Shown: positions 11,167 through 44,434 of the stretch, one piece after another
How the letters are laid out: each line of letters starts with the position of its first letter
How positions within the stretch are numbered: the first letter of the stretch is position 1
Assembly: GCA_024640545.1 (NCBI GenBank)
Contig: JAHEEU010000003.1
Location: 1-44,471, forward strand
Source: Geobacteraceae bacterium
GTDB taxonomy: Bacteria > Desulfobacterota > Desulfuromonadia > Desulfuromonadales > BM103
Length of the DNA stretch: 44,471 nt
Reading direction: 5' to 3'
Program-made: the position numbers and the translations under genes
Notes under the pieces: model-generated
What the model saw: the letters and a program-made list of their open reading frames with translations, nothing else
Told to the model about the DNA's origin: nothing
The model's database searches: none

Positions 11167-12836
11167 ATGACCCGACTGCGACTCATCACAACTTGGCTGC
11201 TCCTGCTGATCCCAACGCTGTTGTTGGGCCTGGGTGCGCTTTACCTGCTCAAGGGTGAGGAGACCCGCCTGGCCAGCAGCGCCAAGGCGGCGGCCGGCGA
11301 CCGCAGCACGGCGATCGCCGGCAATATCGATTTGGCCGTTGCCGAGGTCAAGGACGGCCTGCTCGAAACGCTGCGCACCCTGCCACGGGCAAGTCTGGCC
11401 AGGGAAGCTGACCAGCTTGAAGAGTGGAAGCGCGGCAACCCGCTGGTCCGCAATGTCTTTATCTGGGAGACCGGGCACGGTCTGCGCTACCCCGATCCGG
11501 AGATGCCGTCGAGCGACGAGGAGGCCGATTTCATCCGCCGCTACCGCGCCCTGTTCGCCAGCCAGACCCCCTGGCAGGGCCCGCCTGGCGACAGCGCCGT
11601 AAACAACAGCCCCGGCCAGGCGAGCAACATCCTGCTGGAACGCAGGGAACTACGCGAACTCGCCAAACAGGCCCCGGCAATGGCAGACGTCAGCGGAGCT
11701 CCGGCCTCGGACGCAGCCCCAGCCGTTACCAACGGCTGGCGGCCGTGGTTCGCCGACAACAGCCTGCACTTGATCGGTTGGTACGAGTGGACCGGCCGGC
11801 CGCTGCGGATCGGTGTCGAGGTCGAAATGATGGCTTTGCTGAGCCGCCTGCTCGGCAACTTCCCGGCCGAGCCTCCATACACGGAAACCTATGCGCTGCT
11901 CGATGGCAACGGCGCGGTATTCCACCAGGTCGGGCGCCTGGAAATCACTCCAAGCAGCCAGCCGCTGGCCACAGCCGCCATCGCCGGCCTGCCGCACTGG
12001 CGGGTTGCCGTCTATGCAAACAGCACGGACGGTGCCACTGGCGGCAGTTTCCTGCTGCTCGGCTCGCTGCTGGTCGGCATTTTCGTGGTCGCCATCCTGT
12101 TCGGTGGCTCGCTGCTGCTCTGGCAGGCCCACCGCAACCAGGTGGACGCCTGGCAGAAGACCTCTTTCGTCTCAAGCGTTTCTCACGAGCTGAAGACGCC
12201 GCTCACCACGATCCGCATGTATGCCGAGCTGCTTGGTGAAAAGCGCATAGAGGATCCCGACAAGCAGAGACGTTACCTGCAGGTGATCATCCGCGAGAGC
12301 CAGCGCCTGACCCGGCTGGTCAACAACGTGCTCGACTTCAGCCGGCTCGAACAGGGGCGTCGTAAGTTTACCAGGGAGGAGGTAGACCTGGCCGCCCTGT
12401 TGCACGGGCTGCTCGACAACCAGCTGGTACGCATCGAGGAGGCCGGCATGCAACTGGCGCGGCAGATTGAAGCTTCACCGGCTGTGGTTGAAAGCGACCG
12501 TGACGCGCTCGAGCAGATCGTGCTCAACCTGATCGACAACGCCATCAAGTATGCCGCGGCCGGCAAACTTTTGCGGGTTGAATTACAGCCGCAGCAAGGC
12601 TGTTGGCTGGTGCGCATCAGCGATCAGGGACCCGGCATCCCCAGCGCTCACCGCCAGCAGGTTTTTGACAAGTTTCACAGGGTCGACACGTCGCTGACCG
12701 CCCGCCAGCAAGGGAGCGGGCTCGGTCTGAGCATCGCCCGCCAGCTCGCCGAAGGGCTCGGCGGGGCCCTGGTCTTCTGTCCAGGCAGCAACGGCGGGGC
12801 CTGTTTCGAACTCACTGTGCCGATGGGAGGTGAAGC

Positions 12837-12840
<4 letters not shown>
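11167..12840 (+). CDS. Membrane-bound sensor histidine kinase
   Basis: 557-residue two-component sensor. A transmembrane helix at about 7-28, a periplasmic sensing region of about 260 residues with no recognised fold, and a second helix at about 290-318 (LLLGSLLVGIFVVAILFGGS) lead to the cytoplasmic kinase. HisKA shows SVSHELKTPLTTIRMY with phosphoacceptor His340; HATPase_c shows NLIDNAIKYA (N box), DQGPGIP (G1) and GSGLGLSIARQLAE (G2). No HAMP is obvious. The last four bases overlap the start of the response regulator gene (ATGA), so the two are translationally coupled. The VWA gene upstream may be a target or a sensed partner; inference from position only. Confidence 0.93.
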
Positions 12841-13541
<701 letters not shown>

Positions 13542-13550
13542 ACAGCCCCC

Positions 13551-16055
13551 TCACTGGCGGTTGAGCGTAGCATCTGTTTCGGGCCCGAAAGGTTTCAGCA
13601 GAACAATCAACTGCGGCAGCAGGGTCAGCGCCGCCAACAGGGCGATAACCATCGCCAGAACGGTGAGCACTCCGAAGTAGATGCTCGGGATGAAATTGGA
13701 GAGCACGAGGATCGAAAAGCCGATGATGATGCTCACCGAAGTATAGTACATGGCATAGCCGATGCTGCCGTGGCAGCGATGCATTGTCGCCAGGTAATGG
13801 CCGTCCCTGGCAAACTCCCGCCGGAAACGATGGATGTAGTGAATCGTGTCATCGACGGCGATACCAACGCTGATCGCCGCGATGGTGATGGTCATCATGT
13901 CGAGGGGAATCCCCACCCAGCCCATGAAGCCCAGCACGGTCACCACCGAAAGGAGGTTGGGGAAGATGGCAATGAGGGAGATCTTCAGCGAGCGGAAGAG
14001 GACCATGAACATCAGCATCAGCGCGACCACCACCGCGCCCATGGTCAGAATCTGCGAAGAGAACAGGCTCTGCAGCATGTTGTTGTACAGCAGCAGCAGC
14101 CCGGCCAGCTGCACGTCCTCCGCCGGCAAACCGAGGTCCCGGGTCAGCCCCAGCCGGATGGTCCGAAGCAGCTCGTTGCGCCGCAGCTTCTTGTCCGAAT
14201 CCTTGACGCGCATGGCGAAGCGCGCCTGGTTGTGCTCTACGGAGACGTAGGGGCTCAGGATGATCCGACGGTAGGTTTCCGGCAGTTCGTTGTAGACCAG
14301 GGCCAGTTGGAAGTTGTCCAGGTCCTGGCCCCGGTTGATGCGGCGCCCGACCTGGAGCATCGTGCCCAGGGAGAGGACCTTGCCCGTCTCCGGCAGGGCA
14401 TCGAGATAGTCGTGCACCGCTTCGACCTTGGCCATCTTACGGGCCGTGAACCAGTACTGGGCCTGGCCCTTGTCCGCCTCGAACTCCGCCTCGAGCTCTG
14501 CAAAAACCCCTGTCGGCACGCCGCCTGCCGACTCTTTCGGCGCAGCCTCGTCCGCGGGGAAGCTGACCAGGACATCCAGGGGCGTCGTCCCGCCCAGTTT
14601 CTCGTCGATCACTTTCATTCCCTGGTAAATCTCCGTCGACTCCTTGAAATAATCGATGAAACTGTTTTCCACCACCAGCCGCGAAGCGCCCAGGATACTG
14701 CCGATCAGCAGCAGAAGGCTGAGCGCTATGATCAGTCGGCCATGACTTTCGGTAAAACGCCCCAGGGTTTTGCTGATGGAAAAAGACAGCTGACAGGAGG
14801 TGGGGATGCTTGTGGGGATCAACATCATCAGTGCGGGGAAGAGGACGAAGGTCAAGAGCAGCGAGATGCCGATTCCGGCACTCATCATCCAGCCGAAGTT
14901 GATCACTGGCAGGATATCGCACAAGATCAGGGAGCTGAAGCCGGCCACCGTGGTGAGCACTGCGAAGCAACAGGGCTTGGCCATGGAATGGACGGTCTCC
15001 AGGACCAGCCGCCGCTGGTCCGCCCCCGGGTCCATGCAGATGAGCTCGCGGTAGCGGACGATCAGGTGGATAACCACCGACATGGTGATAATCAACTGCA
15101 GGGAGATGAAGTTGGAGGAGATGACCGTGACCTCCCAGCCGAACATACCCAGCAGGCCGCAGGTGGCGACCACCGAAAGAACGCTGCAGAGCAGGGGGAG
15201 GACAACCCAGTGCAGCTGCCTGAAGATCAACCACAGGGTCAATGCCAGCAGGGAAAGGACGCATAAGCCGAAGACCTCAAGGTCGCTCTTGATGAAGGAG
15301 ATCAGGTCGTCGGCAATCATGCTGACACCGCCGAGGAAGAGTTCGGCCGTTCCCCGATGCCTGGCCATGACGGCCCGAACTTCCTCGATATTGTGATGCT
15401 GGCTGAGCCGCATCGCGTCGCGGTGGACCTTGAAGCGCTCCTGGACGTCGTCCAGCTCGGTGCGCTCCGCCGCCGACAGGCCACTGGCGTCCGCCTTCTG
15501 GCGCAGCTGATTGCGCCGCTCGAGCAGTTGTTTGAAGAGCGGGTCGTCAGGCAGAATCACCTGCAGAGCGGTGGTGCGCAGGTCGGGGCTGACCAGAAGA
15601 TTGCGGTAAATGGGGCTTTTCTGGAACTCCCTGCGGGCCAACTCCCGGTCGACTCCCGCAGACTCGAGGGTCCTGACATCATAAACCAGCTCCTTGACCG
15701 GCCGCGGCGGACTTTCCAGCAGGGGGACATCGAGGATGGACGTGACCGACTCGACCCCGTCGAGGGCCTTGAGCTCGTCGCGCAACAGCGCCAGGTCGGC
15801 CAGGACCGCAGCCGAGAAGAGATCGTCGTGCGGAATGTAGGAGACGATCAGGAAATCCGAGCCGCCGTAGCGGTCGTTGACCAGGCGTGTGAATTGCAGG
15901 TCCTGGTCGTCCTCGAGGACCAGGGTCTCGGCCGAGGCGTCAATCTCGAGCTTGCGGGCCTGATTCGCCAGTGCGATCAACAGCAGCAGCATCACCAGCA
16001 GAACGGTTTTCGGATAGACCAGGATGAGCCGGTCGTAAAAGGCTTTCAACATCAC
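13551..16055 (-). CDS. RND/MMPL-family lipid exporter-like membrane protein
   Basis: 834 residues with the doubled RND layout: an N-terminal helix (TVLLVMLLLLIALANQA), a large periplasmic domain, five helices, then the same pattern repeated from about residue 425. Second-half transmembrane segments include ILTMGAVVVALMLMFMVLFR and DMMTITIAAISVGIAVDDTI, whose acidic pair VDD would sit in the proton-relay position. The half-size and lipid-type neighbours point to the MMPL/HpnN branch rather than drug efflux. The start overlaps the mlaC stop by four bases (ATGA), and mlaA lies just upstream. Together they suggest movement of lipids, possibly hopanoids or phospholipids, between inner and outer membrane. 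The substrate is inferred, not seen. Confidence 0.88.
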   Translation of the reverse strand: MMLKAFYDRLILVYPKTVLLVMLLLLIALANQARKLEIDASAETLVLEDDQDLQFTRLVNDRYGGSDFLIVSYIPHDDLFSAAVLADLALLRDELKALDGVESVTSILDVPLLESPPRPVKELVYDVRTLESAGVDRELARREFQKSPIYRNLLVSPDLRTTALQVILPDDPLFKQLLERRNQLRQKADASGLSAAERTELDDVQERFKVHRDAMRLSQHHNIEEVRAVMARHRGTAELFLGGVSMIADDLISFIKSDLEVFGLCVLSLLALTLWLIFRQLHWVVLPLLCSVLSVVATCGLLGMFGWEVTVISSNFISLQLIITMSVVIHLIVRYRELICMDPGADQRRLVLETVHSMAKPCCFAVLTTVAGFSSLILCDILPVINFGWMMSAGIGISLLLTFVLFPALMMLIPTSIPTSCQLSFSISKTLGRFTESHGRLIIALSLLLLIGSILGASRLVVENSFIDYFKESTEIYQGMKVIDEKLGGTTPLDVLVSFPADEAAPKESAGGVPTGVFAELEAEFEADKGQAQYWFTARKMAKVEAVHDYLDALPETGKVLSLGTMLQVGRRINRGQDLDNFQLALVYNELPETYRRIILSPYVSVEHNQARFAMRVKDSDKKLRRNELLRTIRLGLTRDLGLPAEDVQLAGLLLLYNNMLQSLFSSQILTMGAVVVALMLMFMVLFRSLKISLIAIFPNLLSVVTVLGFMGWVGIPLDMMTITIAAISVGIAVDDTIHYIHRFRREFARDGHYLATMHRCHGSIGYAMYYTSVSIIIGFSILVLSNFIPSIYFGVLTVLAMVIALLAALTLLPQLIVLLKPFGPETDATLNRQ

Positions 16056-16678
16056 TGCGCCCCCGGACGGCTCCCCGTGTCGACCGGAGCAGGGAGGGCA
16101 AAGCTGCCTTCGCTCTTGAGCTTGCCAAGCAGGTCGTCGATGGTGCCCTCGCTCAGGACCCCGTCAAACTGGGAGCGATAGGTCTGGATGACGCTCACCC
16201 CGCCGATCTCCACGTCGTAGATTTTCCATCCCTGGGCGGCGCGGTAGAACTTGTAGAGCATGCCGATACGGCTGTCCCTGGAAACCATGGTCGTCGGCAT
16301 ATGCACCGTTTTCCCTTGCGCCTGCGGTTCACCATAGAGGATTTCTTCGTCGGTGTAGAGGTCGAGCTTGTCGAGGTAGGAAGCCTGCAGACGCTTGATA
16401 AAGAGCTCGGAGAATTCCAGCTGCTTCGCCTGGCCGAGGCCGGGCCAGTACTTCGAGCCCAGGCTCAGTTTGGCCATGGTCTGGTAGTCGAAGATCGGTG
16501 AGACGATATCGAGAATCCGTTCGTTTCTGTGGACCTTGTCCAGCGTCTTGTCCTGCAGCAGCACCACCACTTTATCGACCTTCCCCTTGAGTAAATCGCG
16601 CACCTCGTCCAGGTCGCCGGCCAGGGCCGGCGTAACAGCAAGGCAGAGACAGAGAATGCCGGTTAACAGGAATTGCAT
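16052..16678 (-). CDS. mlaC: MlaC/Ttg2D-family periplasmic lipid-binding protein
   Basis: 208 residues with signal peptide (MQFLLTGILCLCLAVTPALA). The MlaC/toluene-tolerance Ttg2D fold is recognisable from RNERILDIVSPIFDYQTMAK, LGSKYWPGLGQAKQLEFSEL, and GWKIYDVEIGGVSVIQTYRS. In the Mla system MlaC carries phospholipids across the periplasm between MlaA and an inner-membrane partner. Here that partner is probably the RND-type protein whose start overlaps the stop codon. GGAG lies 6 bases before the ATG, at the end of mlaA; the intergenic gap is 9 bases. Confidence 0.9.
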   Translation of the reverse strand: MQFLLTGILCLCLAVTPALAGDLDEVRDLLKGKVDKVVVLLQDKTLDKVHRNERILDIVSPIFDYQTMAKLSLGSKYWPGLGQAKQLEFSELFIKRLQASYLDKLDLYTDEEILYGEPQAQGKTVHMPTTMVSRDSRIGMLYKFYRAAQGWKIYDVEIGGVSVIQTYRSQFDGVLSEGTIDDLLGKLKSEGSFALPAPVDTGSRPGAQ

Positions 16679-16687
16679 GAGTACTCC

Positions 16688-17491
16688 TTACTCCTCGATT
16701 TGCTTATTCCGTCGCTGTTCGTAGCCGTCCCTGAGGAAGGTATAGAGGTCGACAGCATCCTTTTTCAAGCTCTCGTACTCGCCGATATGCAGGGACGTGT
16801 AGTTCACCCGGTCATAGGCGCGTACGGCCAGCTGCACGTCGGTCTCTTCGATATAGCTGACCGGGTCAAGGAAATAATCAGGGATGAGGCCGAGAGTGTC
16901 GCGCAGGTTGGAGGGCCCCAACAGCGGCAGCACGAGGTGAAAACCGCTGCCGACGCCGTAGTGGCCAAGGGTCTGGCCAAAGTCCTCCGGGTAGGCCTGC
17001 AGCCCGAAGCGGTTGGCCGCCGGGTCGCCGAAACCGAGCACGCCAACCGTCGTGTTGACCAGGAAACGCGCCAGTTCGGTACCGGCCCGTTTCGGCTTGA
17101 GCTGCAGCAGGTTGTTGGCAAAGCGCACCGGCATCAGCAGGTTGCGGAAGAAGCGCCCCACCGCCAGCCTGGCCCCCTCCGGCACCACCGCACGATAGCC
17201 CTGGGCGACCGGCTTGAGCAGCCAGAAGTAGATCTTGTCATTGACCTGGGTCATCAGCCGGTTGTAGCCGATCAACGGATCACTGACCGGTTCGGTGGCG
17301 CCCGCCGTAAATTCTTCTTCAAGGGCGAAGGGATCCCCCCCGACCGCGGCAAGAGAACTCACCTCAGGCCCGGTGGCAGAAACAGGTTCGTGAACGGCAG
17401 CGGGATGAGCTGCACATCCTCCGGAAAGGAGCACCAGAATGGCCAGGAAAACCGGCAGCCTGGCGGGGGTTGTCCGGGGAAGGCTTGTCAT
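16688..17491 (-). CDS. mlaA: MlaA/VacJ-family outer-membrane lipoprotein
   Basis: 267 residues. A lipoprotein signal with lipobox LSGGC (Cys about residue 26) anchors it to the outer membrane. The MlaA core starts at SDPLIGYNRLMTQVNDKIYF and includes RFFRNLLMPVRFANNLLQ, RFLVNTTVGVLGFGDPA, YPEDFGQTLGHYGVGSG and LGLIPDYFLDP, all family signatures. MlaA sits with porins and removes phospholipids from the outer leaflet. The start at 17491 has GGAGG five bases upstream; the frame stays open to 18412, but that part is antisense to the AEC gene and is not coding. First gene of the mlaA-mlaC-RND operon; no mlaFEDB genes are nearby. Confidence 0.92.
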   Translation of the reverse strand: MTSLPRTTPARLPVFLAILVLLSGGCAAHPAAVHEPVSATGPEVSSLAAVGGDPFALEEEFTAGATEPVSDPLIGYNRLMTQVNDKIYFWLLKPVAQGYRAVVPEGARLAVGRFFRNLLMPVRFANNLLQLKPKRAGTELARFLVNTTVGVLGFGDPAANRFGLQAYPEDFGQTLGHYGVGSGFHLVLPLLGPSNLRDTLGLIPDYFLDPVSYIEETDVQLAVRAYDRVNYTSLHIGEYESLKKDAVDLYTFLRDGYEQRRNKQIEE

Positions 17492-17742: not shown

Positions 17743-18648
17743 TTAGAGGATGACCATGATCAGGGTCAGGGTCACCAGGCTGGCCAGGGTTGAGACAAGC
17801 ACCACGGAGGTGACAAACTCCGGGACGATATTTTTCTCCTTGGAGATGATGGCAACCAGGATGGCCGTGGGCATGCCGGCCTGCAGGACCCCGGCAGCAT
17901 AGTCGATATGGGCCAGTCCGAAGGGAATCGCCACCAGGCATGCCAGGACCGGGGCCAGCAGCAGACGGATTGAGGAGGCGACCACGATATCGGCGGAGAG
18001 GTGGACCCGTTTCTGCTCGAGCAGCTGCAGCCCCAGGGCAAAGAGCATCACCGGGATCATGCCATCGGCCAGGAGGCCGATCAAGCGCGACAGCATCAGC
18101 GGGACCTCCAGGCCACCATTGGAGACGATCAACCCGGGCACCGCCGCCCACAGGGCAGGCGTTCTGAGCAGGCCGCTCAAGGCCCCGCGGCTGCCGCCGT
18201 GGGCCCATCCGGCGACGCCGACACAGACCGCGAACGCCGTGATGCTGATGGCGACGAAGTAAATGGTGGCCGGCGCGACGGCCGCGTCGCCAAGCCGAAA
18301 GCGGATCATGGCCAGCCCGTAATTTCCGACGTTGCCGAACACGGCGATCATCACGAAGGCGGCGATCGTCTCCCTGGAGCGCCCCAGCAGCCTGGCCACC
18401 CCGCCCGCGCACAGTGCGGTCAGCAGGTGGGTCGCCGCGATGAAGCAGATCATCTTGGCGGCGTTCTCCAGCGGTATGGCAGAACGGCCGATCGCCTGGA
18501 AGATAAATGCCGGCACGAACACGTAATAGGCCAGGCGAGTCAGGGTTTGGGCCTGCAGGGCCAGGCGGCCGCCCAGCAGGTAGCCGAGCAGGACGATGCC
18601 GAAAACCGGCATGATGACATTGAGAAAGACGTTGAAAAGTTCTGTCAT
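17743..18648 (-). CDS. AEC-family transporter (auxin efflux carrier type), copy 2
   Basis: 301-residue polytopic membrane protein with about ten helices in two repeats (for example LFNVFLNVIMPVFGIVLLGY at the N-terminus and SVVLVSTLASLVTLTLIMVI at the C-terminus). Conserved family segments are FGNVGNYGLAMIRF and LQAGMPTAILVAIIS. AEC carriers move organic acids, malate being a common substrate in bacteria. It lies 38 bases downstream of a second AEC gene on the same strand, presumably one operon. The two are paralogous but not close copies. The substrate is not deducible. Confidence 0.87.
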   Translation of the reverse strand: MTELFNVFLNVIMPVFGIVLLGYLLGGRLALQAQTLTRLAYYVFVPAFIFQAIGRSAIPLENAAKMICFIAATHLLTALCAGGVARLLGRSRETIAAFVMIAVFGNVGNYGLAMIRFRLGDAAVAPATIYFVAISITAFAVCVGVAGWAHGGSRGALSGLLRTPALWAAVPGLIVSNGGLEVPLMLSRLIGLLADGMIPVMLFALGLQLLEQKRVHLSADIVVASSIRLLLAPVLACLVAIPFGLAHIDYAAGVLQAGMPTAILVAIISKEKNIVPEFVTSVVLVSTLASLVTLTLIMVIL

Positions 18649-18686
18649 GGCACGCTAACGAAGAGGGGTCTCAGTTCCACGAGCCT

Positions 18687-19634
18687 CTAAATGAGGTTGC
18701 AAACGCGCAGCAGGAAAATCCCCAGCGTCGAGGAGACGATCGACCCCAGGGAGGTCGCAGCGATAATTGCCGCCGCCAGGTAATGGTTGGCGCCAAACGC
18801 CTGGGCCATGGGATAGCTGGCCGCTGCGGTGGGTGCCGAGGCCATCAGGAACAGGACACCCAGGCTTTCGCCGCGCAGGCCGATGGCGATGCCGCCAACA
18901 GTGATCAACAGCGGCACCAGGAGCAGTTTTCCCGCCGTGCCCCAATAGAGCGGCGGCGACGTCTGGAATTCCCTGAGACGGATGGCGGCCCCGGCACAGA
19001 GCAGGGCCAGCGGCAAAGTCATCTGGGCAAAATAGCTGCCCGTATTGAGGATAATCCGGGGGACCGCTATCCCGCTCAACGAAATGCCGACGCCGGCGGC
19101 GATTGCCAGGATCAGGGGGTTTTTGACAATCCCGTTGATGATGACCTGGACCCTTTTCCCGTTGGTTTCCTGTCCCTGGTGCCGGGTCAGGGTCATCACG
19201 GCCAGGACATTGTAGAGCGTGGTCACGAACGCCAGGTAGATCGAGGCAACCGGCAAGACCTTCTCACCGAAAGCGCTCAGGCAGTAGGCCAGTCCGATAA
19301 TCCCCATGTTGCTACGAAAGGCGCCCTGGACAAAAACACCCCGATCACGGTGATCGGCGATACGCGAACTGGCCAGTCTTTCCAGGAGGAAGTACACGGC
19401 CAGGGTGGCAACAACCGCATAAAGAAACAGCTGCGTATCTACAAGGTGCCTGAAATCGGTCTCGACCAGGTTGACGAACAGCAGGCAGGGCAGCGTTACC
19501 TTGAAGACGAGTTCCGAACCGGTCTTGGCAAATTCATCGGTGATCAAACCACGCCGCTTGAAGTAAATCCCCAGACCCAGGATGCAGAAGATCGGTGCGG
19601 TGATGTGAATGGCAAAGGATAAATCAGTTAGCAT
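18687..19634 (-). CDS. AEC-family transporter, copy 1
   Basis: 315 residues, about ten transmembrane helices. AEC features are visible: IFCILGLGIYFKRRGLITDE at the N-terminus, FRSNMGIIGLAYCLSAFGEK around residue 110, and the C-terminal SAPTAAASYPMAQAFGANH, which matches the substrate-side repeat of the family. The start at 19634 fits the family N-terminus; a longer frame to 19748 adds a hydrophilic stretch without a ribosome site. Tandem arrangement with the following AEC gene hints at a hetero-pair or two related carriers for organic acids. Confidence 0.86.
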   Translation of the reverse strand: MLTDLSFAIHITAPIFCILGLGIYFKRRGLITDEFAKTGSELVFKVTLPCLLFVNLVETDFRHLVDTQLFLYAVVATLAVYFLLERLASSRIADHRDRGVFVQGAFRSNMGIIGLAYCLSAFGEKVLPVASIYLAFVTTLYNVLAVMTLTRHQGQETNGKRVQVIINGIVKNPLILAIAAGVGISLSGIAVPRIILNTGSYFAQMTLPLALLCAGAAIRLREFQTSPPLYWGTAGKLLLVPLLITVGGIAIGLRGESLGVLFLMASAPTAAASYPMAQAFGANHYLAAAIIAATSLGSIVSSTLGIFLLRVCNLI

Positions 19635-19935
19635 ATTGTATTCTGGGTGAAAGGATTGGGGTTGAATTCTAGTAAACTTATGTTTTGACTTGTGGCATAA
19701 AAGGGTGACGGATGCTTCAGCACGAGTGTGGGTATTTGTCTGCCGCAAAGGCTGAAATGGCCAGGGTCAAAATGATCACGGACCCGACATCAAAGTGGTG
19801 AGGCCGCCAGCATGCGTCACCATCATGGCCCAAGACGGCAATCGTGTAAACAGTTTAGATCATGTATTATTCACCCGTTCGACTTGGGCGCCGAAACCGT
19901 CCGGCACCGGCAGATTCAACCAGGGCACGGTTGTT
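19635..19935. other. Intergenic region between AEC carrier and membrane protein gene
   Basis: About 300 bases holding the divergent promoters of the minus-strand AEC pair and the plus-strand membrane protein. A frame from 19795 is open into the next gene, but its first 47 codons show no family-like or membrane character and no ribosome site. No further element is recognised. Confidence 0.5.
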
Positions 19936-38504: not shown

Positions 38505-38763
38505 TGTTACCACTCCTTTTTTAGATTAAAAGTCCATAATCGCGGGTGAATTCCCAGTTTGCAGCATATTGGAGAATTTGCATTTTAGACAAACAGCGTT
38601 TTATTTGCAACCCTTTTCCGAGACGAATGTCCGCAGACCGCCCGTGGCCACTATTTGCTTGGAGGGCCTTAACTTTTGGCCAGAATATGTTAAATGTTAA
38701 AGACCTTGAAGAAACCAGAAATTAGGCTTGTATTTAATCATCTATATATCTATATTATTTAAC

Positions 38764-40110
38764 ATGATGAGACCTCTTCGTTATCTGATAATGGCCCTGA
38801 TGCTGCTCGGCTCAACGACCCCGGCCCGGGCCGTTGAGCAGGTGACTCTTACCGAGGCCCTGGCCGCGACCCTGAGCGAGCGCCCCATGCTGCAGGCCAG
38901 CGCTGCCGAGGTGGCCGCCGCGGAGGCCGCCGCAAAGGCGCAGACGAGCCGATACCTGCCTCGCCTGAGCCTGAGCGAACGCTTCGTGCGCACCAATGAA
39001 CCGGCCGGCAGCCTCTTTGCCAACCTGAACCAGAAGCGTTTTGAGTTGAGTCAGGATGCCGACGCATACAACGATCCGCCGGCACGCAGCAACTTCGAAA
39101 CCCGCCTGACCATCAGTCAGCCACTCTTTGATCCAGACCTCAAGTTTGACCGGGAGCGTGCGGCACTCGACCGGGATGCGACCAGCGCCCTGCACGGCCG
39201 GCACCGCGAGGAGGCGGTGCTGGCAACCCTGGTGGCCTACCTAGCCGTGCAGCAGGGCCACGCCCGGCAAGGGTGGGCCGAGCAGTCGCTGGCCGAAGCC
39301 GAAGAGTTGCTGTCCATGGCCCGTGAACGCGAGATGGCCGGGACGGGGCTGCATGCCGACACCCTGCGCAGCGAGGTCCTGCGCAACGACGGCCGCAGGC
39401 AGCTGCTGGCCGCACGCAACAGCGTGCAAAGCGCGCAGCGCCGTCTGGCTCTGACGATCGGCCGGGCCGGCGGGCTGGTCGATATCGCCGCAGCGGCACC
39501 AAACGACCTCATTCCTAGTCCCGATGCTGTGGCCGTCATGCAGCGTGGTGATCTTGCCGCCATGGCCAAGACCGTCGCCGGGGCCGAACTTGCGGCCCAA
39601 CAACAGAAGGCCACCTACCTGCCGCGCATCGGGCTGCAGGCGTCCTACTTCTGGAACGAGAACGACCTGAGCTTCTCCGACGAAGCCGACGCCTGGAGCG
39701 TCAGCGCCGGCCTGGAGTGGTTGATCTTCGATGCCGGTGAACGCTCCAGCGCCCTGGCCGGCGCCCGCGCCCGACAACTCGCCCTCGAGCACCGGCAGCG
39801 CGAACAGGATCGCCAGGCCCGGCTCGCCGTCGCCGAGGCCGTTCAACTGGCAGATGAAGCCGTGGCCCAGCTGGAGTTGGCGCAAAGCTCTCTGGCCGCC
39901 GCCGAGGCCAGCCGCGAGCTCGTCGCCCAGCGCTACGCCGCCGGCCTGGCCACGATGTCGGACCTGCTCGCCGTGCAGACCGAACTGGCCCGGGTACGCA
40001 GTGAACTGGCTGCGGCCGAAACCGGCCTGATCGCAGCGCGCGCGAATATTTACTATGAGCAGGGCACCCTGTTGCAGGCCCTGCTCCCCGAAAGCGAGGC
40101 CCGTCCATGA
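38764..40110 (+). CDS. TolC-family outer-membrane efflux protein
   Basis: 448 residues. Signal peptide (MMRPLRYLIMALMLLG core, cleavage after PARA). Two OEP repeats follow: VTLTEALAATLSERPMLQAS with a long helix, and again from about residue 235 (LAAMAKTVAGAELAAQQQKA). SYFWNENDLSF and LEWLIFDAGER mark the beta strands. It forms the trimeric outer-membrane channel of the efflux system whose other genes overlap downstream. The ATG at 38764 has no good ribosome site; the upstream DNA is AT-rich and promoter-like. The stop overlaps the next start (ATGA). Confidence 0.9.
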   Translation: MMRPLRYLIMALMLLGSTTPARAVEQVTLTEALAATLSERPMLQASAAEVAAAEAAAKAQTSRYLPRLSLSERFVRTNEPAGSLFANLNQKRFELSQDADAYNDPPARSNFETRLTISQPLFDPDLKFDRERAALDRDATSALHGRHREEAVLATLVAYLAVQQGHARQGWAEQSLAEAEELLSMAREREMAGTGLHADTLRSEVLRNDGRRQLLAARNSVQSAQRRLALTIGRAGGLVDIAAAAPNDLIPSPDAVAVMQRGDLAAMAKTVAGAELAAQQQKATYLPRIGLQASYFWNENDLSFSDEADAWSVSAGLEWLIFDAGERSSALAGARARQLALEHRQREQDRQARLAVAEAVQLADEAVAQLELAQSSLAAAEASRELVAQRYAAGLATMSDLLAVQTELARVRSELAAAETGLIAARANIYYEQGTLLQALLPESEARP

Positions 40111-41213
40111 TTCGACTGCTTCTCACACTGACCGCCCTGCTGACCATGACTGGCTGCGGAGAGCGCATCGAACCGGGGCAGACGACCGATCAGCCTGCGA
40201 CGGTGAGCGGGCTGACCACCACGGTGGTCGAGCCGGTTGCCGTGCCGGCGCGCTATGCTCTGCCGGGGACCCTCGAGAGCACCGACCGCGGACTGCTGAC
40301 GGCCAGGATTCCCGGTCAGGTAGACCAGATCTTGGTGAGCAAGGGGCAGGTCGTCAAGTCAGGCGACACCCTGCTGACCCTGAGCGGCGAAACGGCAAGC
40401 AGCGAGCTGCAATCCGCCGCATCCGCAGCAACGGCCGCCGAACGACGCCTGGCGGAAGCCGAAACCAATCACAAGCTGGCCGCAGCGACTTATGCGCGCT
40501 TCGTCAAGCTGCGCGACGCCCGTGCGGTCACCCCCCATGAGTTCGACCAGGTCGAGGCCGAGCGCGATGCCGCCGCAGAGCGGCTCGGTGCGGCCAAAGC
40601 CGCCCTGGCGGCCAGCCGGGCCCAGCGCGACAGCGCCCGGACCCTGGCCGAGCAGGCCAGGATCAGGGCTCCCTACGCCGCCACGGTCGCCGAAATCGTG
40701 GTCGACGCCGGCAGCACCGTGCTGCCGGGCTCGCCCCTGCTGCAGCTTGACCGCAGCGGGCCACTGCTGGTCCGGGTCGCGCTTCCCGAAAGCCTAGCCA
40801 CCCGCCATAAGCTCGGCGACCGTTTCCGGGTCGCGCTCCCGACCCTGAACAAGGAGTTGACCGGAACCCTCTCGGAACTGCTGCCGAGCGCCGACCCCGG
40901 CTCGCGCACCATCACGGCGTGGCTCGCCCTGCCCGAAGATCCCACCCTGAAAAACGGGCTGTTCGCCCGGGTGCTCATGCCCGAAGACACCGGCATGACG
41001 ACCCTCATGATCCCCATGCCGGCGGTCGTCACCCGCGGTCAGTTGACCGGGGTCTACGTGGTCGAGAGCGACATCCTGCATTACCGCCTGGTGCGGACCG
41101 GAACCGTGCACGGCGACCAGGTTGAAATTCTCTCGGGGCTTGAGGCCGGTGAAGAGATCGTCACCGGGGATTCGGCCAGGGCCCGTCACGGGGCACGCCT
41201 GGAGCGCAACTGA
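40107..41213 (+). CDS. RND efflux membrane-fusion lipoprotein
   Basis: 368 residues, periplasmic adaptor of an RND pump. The N-terminus is a lipoprotein signal (MIRLLLTLTALLTMTGC, lipobox Cys17). The biotinyl-lipoyl-like barrel starts near TARIPGQVDQILVSKGQVVK, a helical hairpin rich in Ala/Glu occupies about 90-175, then IRAPYAATVAEIVVDAGSTV returns to the barrel, followed by beta-barrel and membrane-proximal domains ending EEIVTGDSARARHGA. Overlaps its TolC-type neighbour by four bases and the permease ATG by one base: a translationally coupled pump operon. Confidence 0.93.
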   Translation: MIRLLLTLTALLTMTGCGERIEPGQTTDQPATVSGLTTTVVEPVAVPARYALPGTLESTDRGLLTARIPGQVDQILVSKGQVVKSGDTLLTLSGETASSELQSAASAATAAERRLAEAETNHKLAAATYARFVKLRDARAVTPHEFDQVEAERDAAAERLGAAKAALAASRAQRDSARTLAEQARIRAPYAATVAEIVVDAGSTVLPGSPLLQLDRSGPLLVRVALPESLATRHKLGDRFRVALPTLNKELTGTLSELLPSADPGSRTITAWLALPEDPTLKNGLFARVLMPEDTGMTTLMIPMPAVVTRGQLTGVYVVESDILHYRLVRTGTVHGDQVEILSGLEAGEEIVTGDSARARHGARLERN

Positions 41214-44200
41214 TGAGCAGTCAGAAGCACTCGCTGCCATCCCGAATCGTCGCCCGTTTCCTCGAAGGCAACCTGTCGACCATCCTGATCATCCTCTCGG
41301 TGATCGCGGGGGTTGTCGCCCTGGCCCTGACCCCCCGCGAAGAAGAACCGCAGATCGTCGTGCCGCTGGCCGACGTCTACGTGCATATGCCGGGCGCCAG
41401 CGCTGCCGAAGTGGAGAAGCAGGTCGCCACCCGCCTGGAGAAGCTGCTCTGGCAGGTCGACGGCGTCGAGTACGTCTATTCCATGTCCCGCCCCGACCTG
41501 GCGATCGTCACCGCCCGCTTCTATGTCGGCGAGGACCGCATCCAGTCTCTGGTCAAGCTGCACAACAAGATTTCCACGCACACCGACATCGTCCCCCCCG
41601 GGGTAGACGGCTGGGTCATCAAGCCGGTGGAAGTCGACGACGTGCCGATCGTCAACCTGACCCTCTTTTCCGACCAGGCCTCCGACCACGAGCTGCGCCG
41701 GGTTGCCGAAGAAGTCGTCGACCGGCTGCAGGCGGTCAAGAACACCTCGGTGACGACGATGATCGGCGGCCGGCCGCGCATGCTGCGGGTGGCCTTCGAT
41801 CCGGCGGCAGCCGCAGCCCGCCACCTCGACCTGTTGAGCGTCCACCAGGCCCTGGCCGGAGCCAATCTCGAGCTCCCCGCGGGGAGCTTTCAGCAGAACA
41901 ATGCCGAACTGCTCGTCCGGGGTGGAAGCTTCTTCAGCAACGCCGATGAGGTCGCCGACCTAGTGGTCGGCGTCCACGGCGACCGTCCGGTCTTCCTGCG
42001 CGATATCGCCAAAATCGAAGACTCCGCCGCCGAGACCACCAGTTATACGCGCATGCGCTTCGGCCCGGCCGCCGGCGTCAGCGAAGCGGCGGCTGATGGC
42101 TACAACGCGGTGCATATCGCCGTCGCCAAGCAGAAGGGCACCAATGCTGTGGTGGTGGCCGAAGATGTCATCACCGCGGTCGACAGCCTCAAGGGAGTGG
42201 TCATCCCGCCGGAGATCCAGGTCCGGGTGACGCGCAACTACGGCGAGACCGCCAACCACAAGGTCAACGAGCTGATGATGCACCTGACCATCGCCGTGGT
42301 GACCGTGCTGGCCCTGGTGCTGTTCGCCCTCGGCTGGCGCGAGGCGCTGGTGGTGGCCGTCTCGATCCCGATCATCTACTCCCTGACCCTGCTGGTGAAC
42401 TTCTGGTTCGGCTATACCATCAACCGGGTGACCCTGTTCGCCCTGGTGCTGGCCCTGGGCCTGCTGGTCGACGACCCGATCGTCGACGTGGAGAACATCT
42501 ACCGCCATTTCAAAATGAAGAAGGAGCCGCCGCGCGATGCGGTGCTGACTGCGATCGACGAGGTGCGGCCGCCGGTGATCCTGGCCACCCTGGCGGTCAT
42601 CCTGTCGTTTTTGCCGATGCTCTTCATCACCGGCATGATGGGGCCCTACATGCGGCCGATGGCGATCAACCTGCCGCTGACCATGCTCATGTCGCTGCTG
42701 GTCGCCTTCACCATCACCCCCTGGATGAGCTACCACGTCCTGAAAGGGGAGTACGGCAAAGGCGATCACGGCGAGTTCGTCCTCGAGGAGAGCCGCACCT
42801 ACCGGGTCTACCGAAAGCTGCTCGACCCCTTTCTGGCCAGCCGCGGCAAAGCCTGGCTGCTGGTCGGCACGGTGATCGTCCTGCTCTTCGCCTCGATGGC
42901 GCTCCCCGCCCTCGGTCTGGTGCCGATGAAGATGCTTCCCTTCGACAACAAGAACGAGTTCCAGCTGGTGGTCGATCTTGACGAGGGCCGCACGCTGGAG
43001 GAGACCGACCGTACGGTACGGGCCCTCGAGGACTACCTGGTGACGGTCAACGAGGTCACGGACGTGTCCTCCTACGTCGGCACCGCCAGCGCCATGGACT
43101 TCAACGGCATGGTCCGCCACTACTACCTGCGCCAGGCGCCCAACCTGGCAGACCTGCGCATCAACCTGGTCGGCAAGGGAGCGCGCTCCCAGCAGAGCCA
43201 TGACATCACCCTGCGCCTGCGCAACGATCTGACCCGGATCGCCGAAGCGCACGGGGCCCGCCTGAAGATCGTCGAAGTCCCCCCCGGTCCGCCGGTCATC
43301 GCCACCCTGGTCGGCGAAGTCTACGGCGATCCCGGCACCCCTTACAGCCGGCAGGTGGATGCCGCCGGGTTGATTGCCGCGCGCATGGCCGCCGAAGACA
43401 AGGTGGTCGACGTGGACGACACGGTAGAGTACCCGCAGCCCCGCTATCGCTTCGTGCCCGACCGCAGCAAGGCGGCCCTGGCCGGGGTCACGGACGCCGA
43501 GATTGCCCGGACCCTGCGCCTGGCCTTGAGCGGCGAGCAGGTGGGGACGCTGCACGTGCCGACCGAACGCAACCCCCTGCACATCGAGCTGCGCATGGAC
43601 CGGGCCGCTCGCTCCTCGCTGGAAGCACTGAACAGCCTGCAGGTGCGCGGCACCGACGGCAACCTGGTGCCGCTCGGCGAACTGGGCGTGTTCCAGGCGG
43701 AAACGCTGGAGCCGACCATCTACCACAAGAACCTCGAGCGGGTGGTCTACGTGTTCGGCGAGATGGCCGGGCGCAGCCCGGTCAACGCGATCCTGAACAT
43801 CGGCGGCCATTTCGACGACCATCCCCTGCCGGAGGGGACCCGGGTGGTCTGGAGCGGCGAAGGCGAGTGGAAGATCACCCTCGACGTCTTCCGCGACCTG
43901 GGGCTGGCATTCGGCGCCGCCCTGGTGCTGATTTACATCCTGCTGATCCTGGAAACCGGTTCCTACGCCATGCCGCTGATCATCATGGGTGCCATACCTT
44001 TGACCATGATCGGCATCATGCCCGGCTTCTGGCTGCTCAACCTGCTGCTCGACCACCCGGTGGGCGGCTACCAGACGCCGGTCTTCTTCACGGCGACCGC
44101 GATGATCGGCATGATCGCCCTGGCCGGCATCGTGGTGCGCAACTCGATCATCCTGATCGACTTCATCCACCATGCCCTCAAGCGCGGCGTGCCGCTGCGT

Positions 44201-44434
44201 GAAGCGCTGGTGGAAAGCGGCGCCGTCCGCCTGCGGCCGATCCTGCTGACTGCCGGAGCCGCCCTGCTCGGCAACTGGGTCATCACCCTCGACCCGATCT
44301 TCTCCGGACTGGCCTGGTCGATCATCTTCGGCGTCTTCGCCTCCACCGCGTTCACCCTGATCGTCATCCCCGTGGTCTACTGGCTGATCTACGGCCGCGA
44401 CCCGGAAACCCATGCAAGGAGATTCCAGTCATGA
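41213..44434 (+). CDS. RND superfamily efflux permease
   Basis: 1073 residues with the 12-helix RND layout and two large periplasmic loops. The start (LEGNLSTILIILSVIAGVVA) is the first helix; VYVHMPGASAAEVEKQVATR is the porter domain. The helix 4 proton-relay sequence LGLLVDDPIVDVENIYRH has both aspartates; helix 10/11 region GIVVRNSIILIDFIHHALKR follows the family. A docking-domain pair is visible as LEKLLWQVDGVEYVYSMSRP and ALEDYLVTVNEVTDVSSYVG. The subset is not that of AcrB-like drug pumps by length and loop sequence, but neither the heavy-metal CzcA signature nor a substrate is evident. Ends in a four-base overlap with the next gene. Confidence 0.93.
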   Translation: MSSQKHSLPSRIVARFLEGNLSTILIILSVIAGVVALALTPREEEPQIVVPLADVYVHMPGASAAEVEKQVATRLEKLLWQVDGVEYVYSMSRPDLAIVTARFYVGEDRIQSLVKLHNKISTHTDIVPPGVDGWVIKPVEVDDVPIVNLTLFSDQASDHELRRVAEEVVDRLQAVKNTSVTTMIGGRPRMLRVAFDPAAAAARHLDLLSVHQALAGANLELPAGSFQQNNAELLVRGGSFFSNADEVADLVVGVHGDRPVFLRDIAKIEDSAAETTSYTRMRFGPAAGVSEAAADGYNAVHIAVAKQKGTNAVVVAEDVITAVDSLKGVVIPPEIQVRVTRNYGETANHKVNELMMHLTIAVVTVLALVLFALGWREALVVAVSIPIIYSLTLLVNFWFGYTINRVTLFALVLALGLLVDDPIVDVENIYRHFKMKKEPPRDAVLTAIDEVRPPVILATLAVILSFLPMLFITGMMGPYMRPMAINLPLTMLMSLLVAFTITPWMSYHVLKGEYGKGDHGEFVLEESRTYRVYRKLLDPFLASRGKAWLLVGTVIVLLFASMALPALGLVPMKMLPFDNKNEFQLVVDLDEGRTLEETDRTVRALEDYLVTVNEVTDVSSYVGTASAMDFNGMVRHYYLRQAPNLADLRINLVGKGARSQQSHDITLRLRNDLTRIAEAHGARLKIVEVPPGPPVIATLVGEVYGDPGTPYSRQVDAAGLIAARMAAEDKVVDVDDTVEYPQPRYRFVPDRSKAALAGVTDAEIARTLRLALSGEQVGTLHVPTERNPLHIELRMDRAARSSLEALNSLQVRGTDGNLVPLGELGVFQAETLEPTIYHKNLERVVYVFGEMAGRSPVNAILNIGGHFDDHPLPEGTRVVWSGEGEWKITLDVFRDLGLAFGAALVLIYILLILETGSYAMPLIIMGAIPLTMIGIMPGFWLLNLLLDHPVGGYQTPVFFTATAMIGMIALAGIVVRNSIILIDFIHHALKRGVPLREALVESGAVRLRPILLTAGAALLGNWVITLDPIFSGLAWSIIFGVFASTAFTLIVIPVVYWLIYGRDPETHARRFQS

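Follow-up and report, generated by a model that had tools for sequence, protein, structure and literature searches.

A likely Mla variant in which an MMPL-type RND protein takes the place of the short-MlaD ABC module

When phospholipids are transferred between two membranes, the direction of the transfer and its energy source are an open question. The locus discussed here bears on both, for it places the genes of an outer-membrane lipid lipoprotein, MlaA, and a periplasmic lipid carrier, MlaC, next to one for a membrane protein of the RND type. Is this RND protein what MlaC works with at the inner membrane? If so, nature has swapped an ABC transporter for an RND protein while keeping MlaA and MlaC, and direction and energy coupling become testable. 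The locus lies in the window, by which we mean the whole stretch of 44,471 nucleotides that was analysed, and consists of the following features.

16688..17491, minus strand: mlaA, outer-membrane MlaA lipoprotein of 267 residues, Pfam PF04333 over residues 71-264
16679..16687, minus strand: mlaA-mlaC spacer of 9 bases, GGAGTACTC, with a ribosome-binding site, read from the sequence
16052..16678, minus strand: mlaC, periplasmic lipid carrier of 208 residues, Pfam PF05494
13551..16052, minus strand: MMPL/RND gene, membrane protein of 833 residues from the ATG at 16052, Pfam PF03176
15030..15120, minus strand: TM4 of the RND protein, with an invariant SSNF and His329, and Ala or Ser325 at the position of HpnN Asp344
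13830..13870, minus strand: TM10 of the RND protein, G-I-A-V-D734-(D/N)-T-I-H738-Y, with Asp734 and His738 invariant, a candidate proton relay

Pfam and direct reading of the sequence bear out the gene content, order, strand and coordinates that the first-pass annotation had given. The Pfam matches are far above their cut-offs for MlaA (232 bits against 25) and MlaC (120 against 26), as well as for the RND protein (95 against 20.5). The MlaA lipobox can be read directly, with Cys26 within LLSGGC and Ala as the +2 residue; AGGAGG at 17501-17496 is the mlaA ribosome-binding site, and a signal peptide is visible by eye in MlaC. Exactly 9 bases (16687-16679) separate the stop of mlaA from the ATG of mlaC. 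The ATGA overlap claimed for mlaC and the RND gene is not what the sequence holds: the junction is TGATG, in which the mlaC stop and the RND ATG (16052) share 1 base, or, if the alternative GTG start at 16055 is used, a 4-base GTGA overlap. Such a junction is suited to translational coupling. The RND protein is laid out as two halves of six TM segments with two periplasmic domains. We reject an ordinary drug-efflux RND, as the operon has no adaptor or outer-membrane channel gene. A true AcrAB-TolC-type pump is found elsewhere in the window, at 38728-44434.

The association of these genes is conserved. Scanning genome contigs turned up 80 homologues of the RND protein at 47-75% identity, or 81 loci with that of the window, carrying the labels of about six phyla (Desulfobacterota, SAR324/Lambdaproteobacteria, Campylobacterota, Planctomycetota including anammox bacteria, Nitrospirota, Lentisphaerae and others), although such labels may be affected by binning. 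In 59 of the 81 loci mlaC lies directly upstream of the RND gene on the same strand, which rules out chance adjacency; 75 of the 81 have enough upstream sequence, and 16 of these 75 are without mlaC there. The gene for MlaA is present as well in 51 of the 59 linked loci. The order is mlaA-mlaC-RND in 32 of the 81 and mlaC-RND-mlaA in 19, and because the order changes while the association persists, this argues for a functional link between the three genes. The first-pass annotation was thus right to tie mlaA and mlaC to the RND gene, and the tie is kept in several phyla and in either gene order.

The rest of the genome complicates the picture. The source genome is a MAG of 268 contigs, 87.6% complete, in which the only MlaC is the operon's and MlaA is present in two copies, one in the operon and one on contig C49. 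Searching it for mlaFEDB and hopanoid genes did return an ABC module: the sole MlaE of the genome lies on contig C128, followed by MlaF and MlaD in the order mlaE-mlaF-mlaD with no mlaC beside them, so a genome devoid of any ABC Mla is ruled out. The MlaD of C128 has 362 residues, which include a single MCE domain plus a long extension, and belongs to a type believed not to need MlaC. A large survey of Mla components reports that beta-barrel MlaD tends to co-occur with the absence of MlaA and MlaC (PMC10665443). A MlaC-linked MlaFED(B) module with a short MlaD is absent from the locus and was not found in the genome at its 87.6% completeness. The claim that the usual ABC partner is missing therefore stands for the locus and falls for the genome. 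That the RND protein stands in place of MlaFEDB holds for the MlaC-linked, short-MlaD cassette but not more broadly, since the genome retains a long-MlaD mlaEFD.

The genes on C128 could in principle use the operon's MlaC. This is what the standard model would say: MlaA and MlaC serve an unlinked MlaEFD, and the RND gene encodes an efflux protein that is co-regulated with them and carries something else. The published model for Campylobacter jejuni has this form, joining mlaA-mlaC (Cj1371-Cj1372) to an mlaEFD that lies apart from them (Cj1646-Cj1648) as one pathway (PMC6549495). Several lines of evidence speak against applying it here. MlaE is undetected in 18 of 50 triad genomes, taken over all phyla, and 42 of the 50 have a single MlaC, though most of the compared genomes are MAGs and absences may be assembly gaps. 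The SAR324 class shows a strong avoidance, with RND only in 28 genomes, MlaE only in 14, both in 4 and neither in 6 (Fisher p 5e-5, with shared ancestry ignored).

The window's own family is the most telling case. There mlaA-mlaC-RND is found in 7 genomes, mlaE-F-D(short)-A-C in 5 and both in none (Fisher p 0.0013, computed with the genomes as independent and their kinship ignored), and one genus holds both cassette types. The MlaC-linked mlaEFD with a short MlaD is thus absent exactly where the RND protein is present. The long-MlaD mlaEFD occurs in RND-type and ABC-type genomes alike, where inspected, so the RND cassette replaces the short-MlaD Mla cassette and not the long-MlaD one. The same separation is seen among 146 genomes of the class, nearly all of them at least 90% complete: MlaC is RND-linked in every one of the 8 genomes that carry the close RND clade and MlaE-linked in none of them; elsewhere in the class 68 MlaCs adjoin mlaE.

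The phylogeny of MlaC tracks the link to the RND protein. Of the 65 RND-linked MlaCs, 64 group in a single clade (ultrafast bootstrap 100 in IQ-TREE), seen first by FastTree, in a tree that also holds 8 ABC-linked MlaCs from mlaEFD operons and 14 other MlaCs. The operon's MlaC falls within this clade, apart from the ABC-linked ones. Since the MlaCs of the swapped cassettes come from different clades, the exchange in the family probably involved entire cassettes. In one MAG of the Desulfobacterales, a classical mlaE-F-D-C-A operon (L090) coexists with a separate mlaC-RND-mlaA (L021); there the triad runs in parallel, with a carrier to itself. In our opinion the avoidance, the swap and the MlaC phylogeny make it quite unlikely that the operon's MlaA and MlaC simply serve a distant MlaEFD. 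The idea that the RND protein is the inner-membrane partner of MlaC is well supported by comparative genomics, that is, by the linkage, the private MlaC clade and the swap within the family.

Structural models agree with the family assignments. The model of MlaC (pLDDT 92) matches lipid-bound MlaC/Ttg2D and related structures, phospholipid-bound MlaC among them. The best Foldseek matches of the RND model (pLDDT 83, pTM 0.77) are MmpL5/MmpL4 and HpnN, with MmpL3 and NPC1-type proteins also matched; the E-value against MmpL5 is 9e-24. By sequence profile the RND protein falls below the MmpL3 cut-off and that of HAE3 (TIGR00921; 167 bits against 352). With residues numbered from the ATG at 16052, His329 in TM4 and Asp734 and His738 in TM10 are invariant across 28 aligned members, and all 28 have Ala or Ser at the position of HpnN Asp344. 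A proton relay through Asp734/His738 of TM10 is plausible, but with TM4 lacking HpnN's Asp the coupling may be weak or different.

The first-pass annotation had named phospholipids or hopanoids as the cargo. Of the known pairs of a carrier with an RND protein, HpnM-HpnN comes nearest, and HpnN is a lipid exporter (PMC12583986). If the operon were a hopanoid transport system of this type, one could point to the protein families it shares with hpnM/hpnN of hopanoid clusters, to the 107-bit match of its RND protein to the HpnN profile and to a strong squalene-hopene cyclase match in two planctomycete triad genomes. However, 107 bits is well short of the 751.9 at which TIGR03480 assigns HpnN, NF052374 gives 79 against 1100, and MlaC scores 57 against the 160 of TIGR03481 for HpnM. 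The Asp of TM4 is missing from the RND family. Squalene-hopene cyclase (PF13243) has no match in the source genome, 87.6% complete, and no match at all in 42 of the 50 triad genomes. The low scores and the rarity of the cyclase rule out hopanoids as the general answer; for this operon we regard them as an unlikely cargo, and a system of the HpnM-HpnN type as scarcely credible.

We believe the operon is probably an Mla variant in which an MMPL-type RND protein replaces the ABC module with a short MlaD (MlaFED) and drives phospholipid in the retrograde direction with protons. MlaA in the outer membrane would extract misplaced phospholipid and hand it to MlaC. MlaC would cross the periplasm and dock on the periplasmic domains of the RND protein; we infer a physical contact at this step. 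The RND protein would then take the lipid from MlaC and place it in the inner membrane, drawing energy from the proton gradient by way of Asp734/His738 of TM10. The hand-over of lipid from NPC2 to NPC1 resembles the proposed step from MlaC to the RND protein.

The direction of transport deserves separate consideration. The RND protein, MlaC and MlaA could instead move lipid outward. MmpL3 is an RND lipid exporter that works outward, and the precedent of HpnN and MmpL3 as exporters keeps an anterograde reading alive. HpnN is among the structural matches of the RND model, and in NCBIfam the operon's MlaC scores higher against HpnM (57 bits) than against E. coli MlaC (25 bits). Against this, in the Mla systems that have been studied retrograde transport starts at MlaA. 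The swap with mlaEFD-AC inside one family points to the same task for both cassettes. Two observations favor retrograde transport: the system that the RND cassette replaces is held to be retrograde, and an mlaA mutant of C. jejuni makes too many vesicles, the effect expected when retrograde transport is lost (PMC6549495). On the bare question of direction we lean toward retrograde, with a substantial minority of our confidence left to anterograde; as a full account of the operon, outward transport is possible but doubtful.

Little of this has been remarked on. The survey of Mla components finds that MlaA and MlaC are sparsely distributed and says nothing of RND proteins (PMC10665443), and a paper on a metagenomic clone lists MMPL and MlaC ORFs side by side without commenting on the pair (PMC8343002). 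We found no description of a triad of MlaA/MlaC with an RND or MMPL protein in the open-access literature. The results suggest that the RND triad is a second, little-noticed way to power outer-membrane lipid upkeep. The broader claim is that there is a widespread and previously unrecognised class of Mla in which the proton gradient acting through an MMPL/RND protein, and not ATP acting through MlaFED, moves phospholipids between MlaC and the inner membrane, and which in some lineages, such as much of SAR324, is the only Mla-type machinery. We consider the case for this evenly balanced. A swap of the ABC module for an RND protein would also account for the presence of MlaA and MlaC in bacteria with no MlaD other than the long one, which should have no need of them. 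Sulfurimonas and relatives within the Desulfuromonadales are tractable hosts in which direction and energy coupling could be tested.

It is useful to set the operon against the systems that are already known. It shares the MlaA and MlaC families and the MlaC fold with canonical Mla (MlaA-MlaBCDEF of E. coli), and sister genomes fill the same slot with mlaE-F-D(short)-A-C; the locus differs in having an MMPL/RND protein instead of MlaE, MlaF and MlaD, and an MlaC of a separate clade. With HpnM-HpnN it has in common an MlaC-family carrier, an MMPL/RND protein and an overall HpnN-like fold, but it scores below both NCBIfam cut-offs, its RND protein has the TM4 Asp replaced, it includes MlaA, and hopanoid synthesis was not found in the genome. 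NPC2-NPC1 and MmpL3/MmpL5 share the lipid-moving RND fold, as NPC1-type and MmpL structures match the RND model, yet sequence identity to the operon's RND protein is only 10-16% and cargo and partners differ. The mlaEFD of C128, with its one MCE domain and long extension, resembles the long-MlaD MlaEFD of Veillonella parvula, but that minimal system has no MlaA or MlaC (PMC10665443), whereas the source genome has both, together with the RND protein. In C. jejuni, too, mlaA and mlaC lie together, distant from mlaEFD, and their neighbor Cj1373 carries the annotation of an integral membrane protein. In the C. jejuni literature we examined, no placement of Cj1373 in the Mla pathway was found. The full mlaA/mlaC/RND triad is present in other Campylobacterota, and from the synteny in related genera Cj1373 is a candidate counterpart of the operon's RND protein.

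Among the other features that share the window with the mlaA-mlaC-RND operon are:

11167-13541, convergent with the operon: a sensor kinase and an OmpR-type response regulator
17743-19748, on mlaA's strand and upstream of mlaA: two tandem transporters of the auxin-efflux-carrier family (PF03547)
38728-44434: a tripartite efflux operon of the AcrAB-TolC type, with all its components present (ACR_tran pump, adaptor and outer-membrane factor)

The stop codons of the RND gene and the response regulator lie 9 bases apart.

On contig C49 (locus L002, 29-2100) the genome has a second MlaA gene, 2 bases after the gene for an alpha/beta-hydrolase-fold protein of 434 aa with an apparent signal peptide. 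Neither MlaC nor an inner-membrane partner is found at this locus, and the two genes are possibly a lipase-MlaA pair.

Three loci from family f2 of the window's own class (L108, L110 and L111) pair mlaA with mlaC and have no adjoining mlaE or RND gene; their genomes carry a divergent RND homologue at a separate locus (L109), without mlaC. The Nitrospinota-type loci L074, L076 and L084 are another arrangement of the RND-mlaC pair, with mlaC about 1.1 kb downstream of the RND gene on the opposite strand. At locus L085 (2401-3852), a gene immediately ahead of long-MlaD mlaEFD encodes a 483-aa protein, probably secreted, in which 'WPFF'-like motifs recur and which matches no Pfam family.

The RND protein of the mla operon is MMPL-type and distinct from the ACR_tran pump of the window's AcrAB-TolC-type operon.
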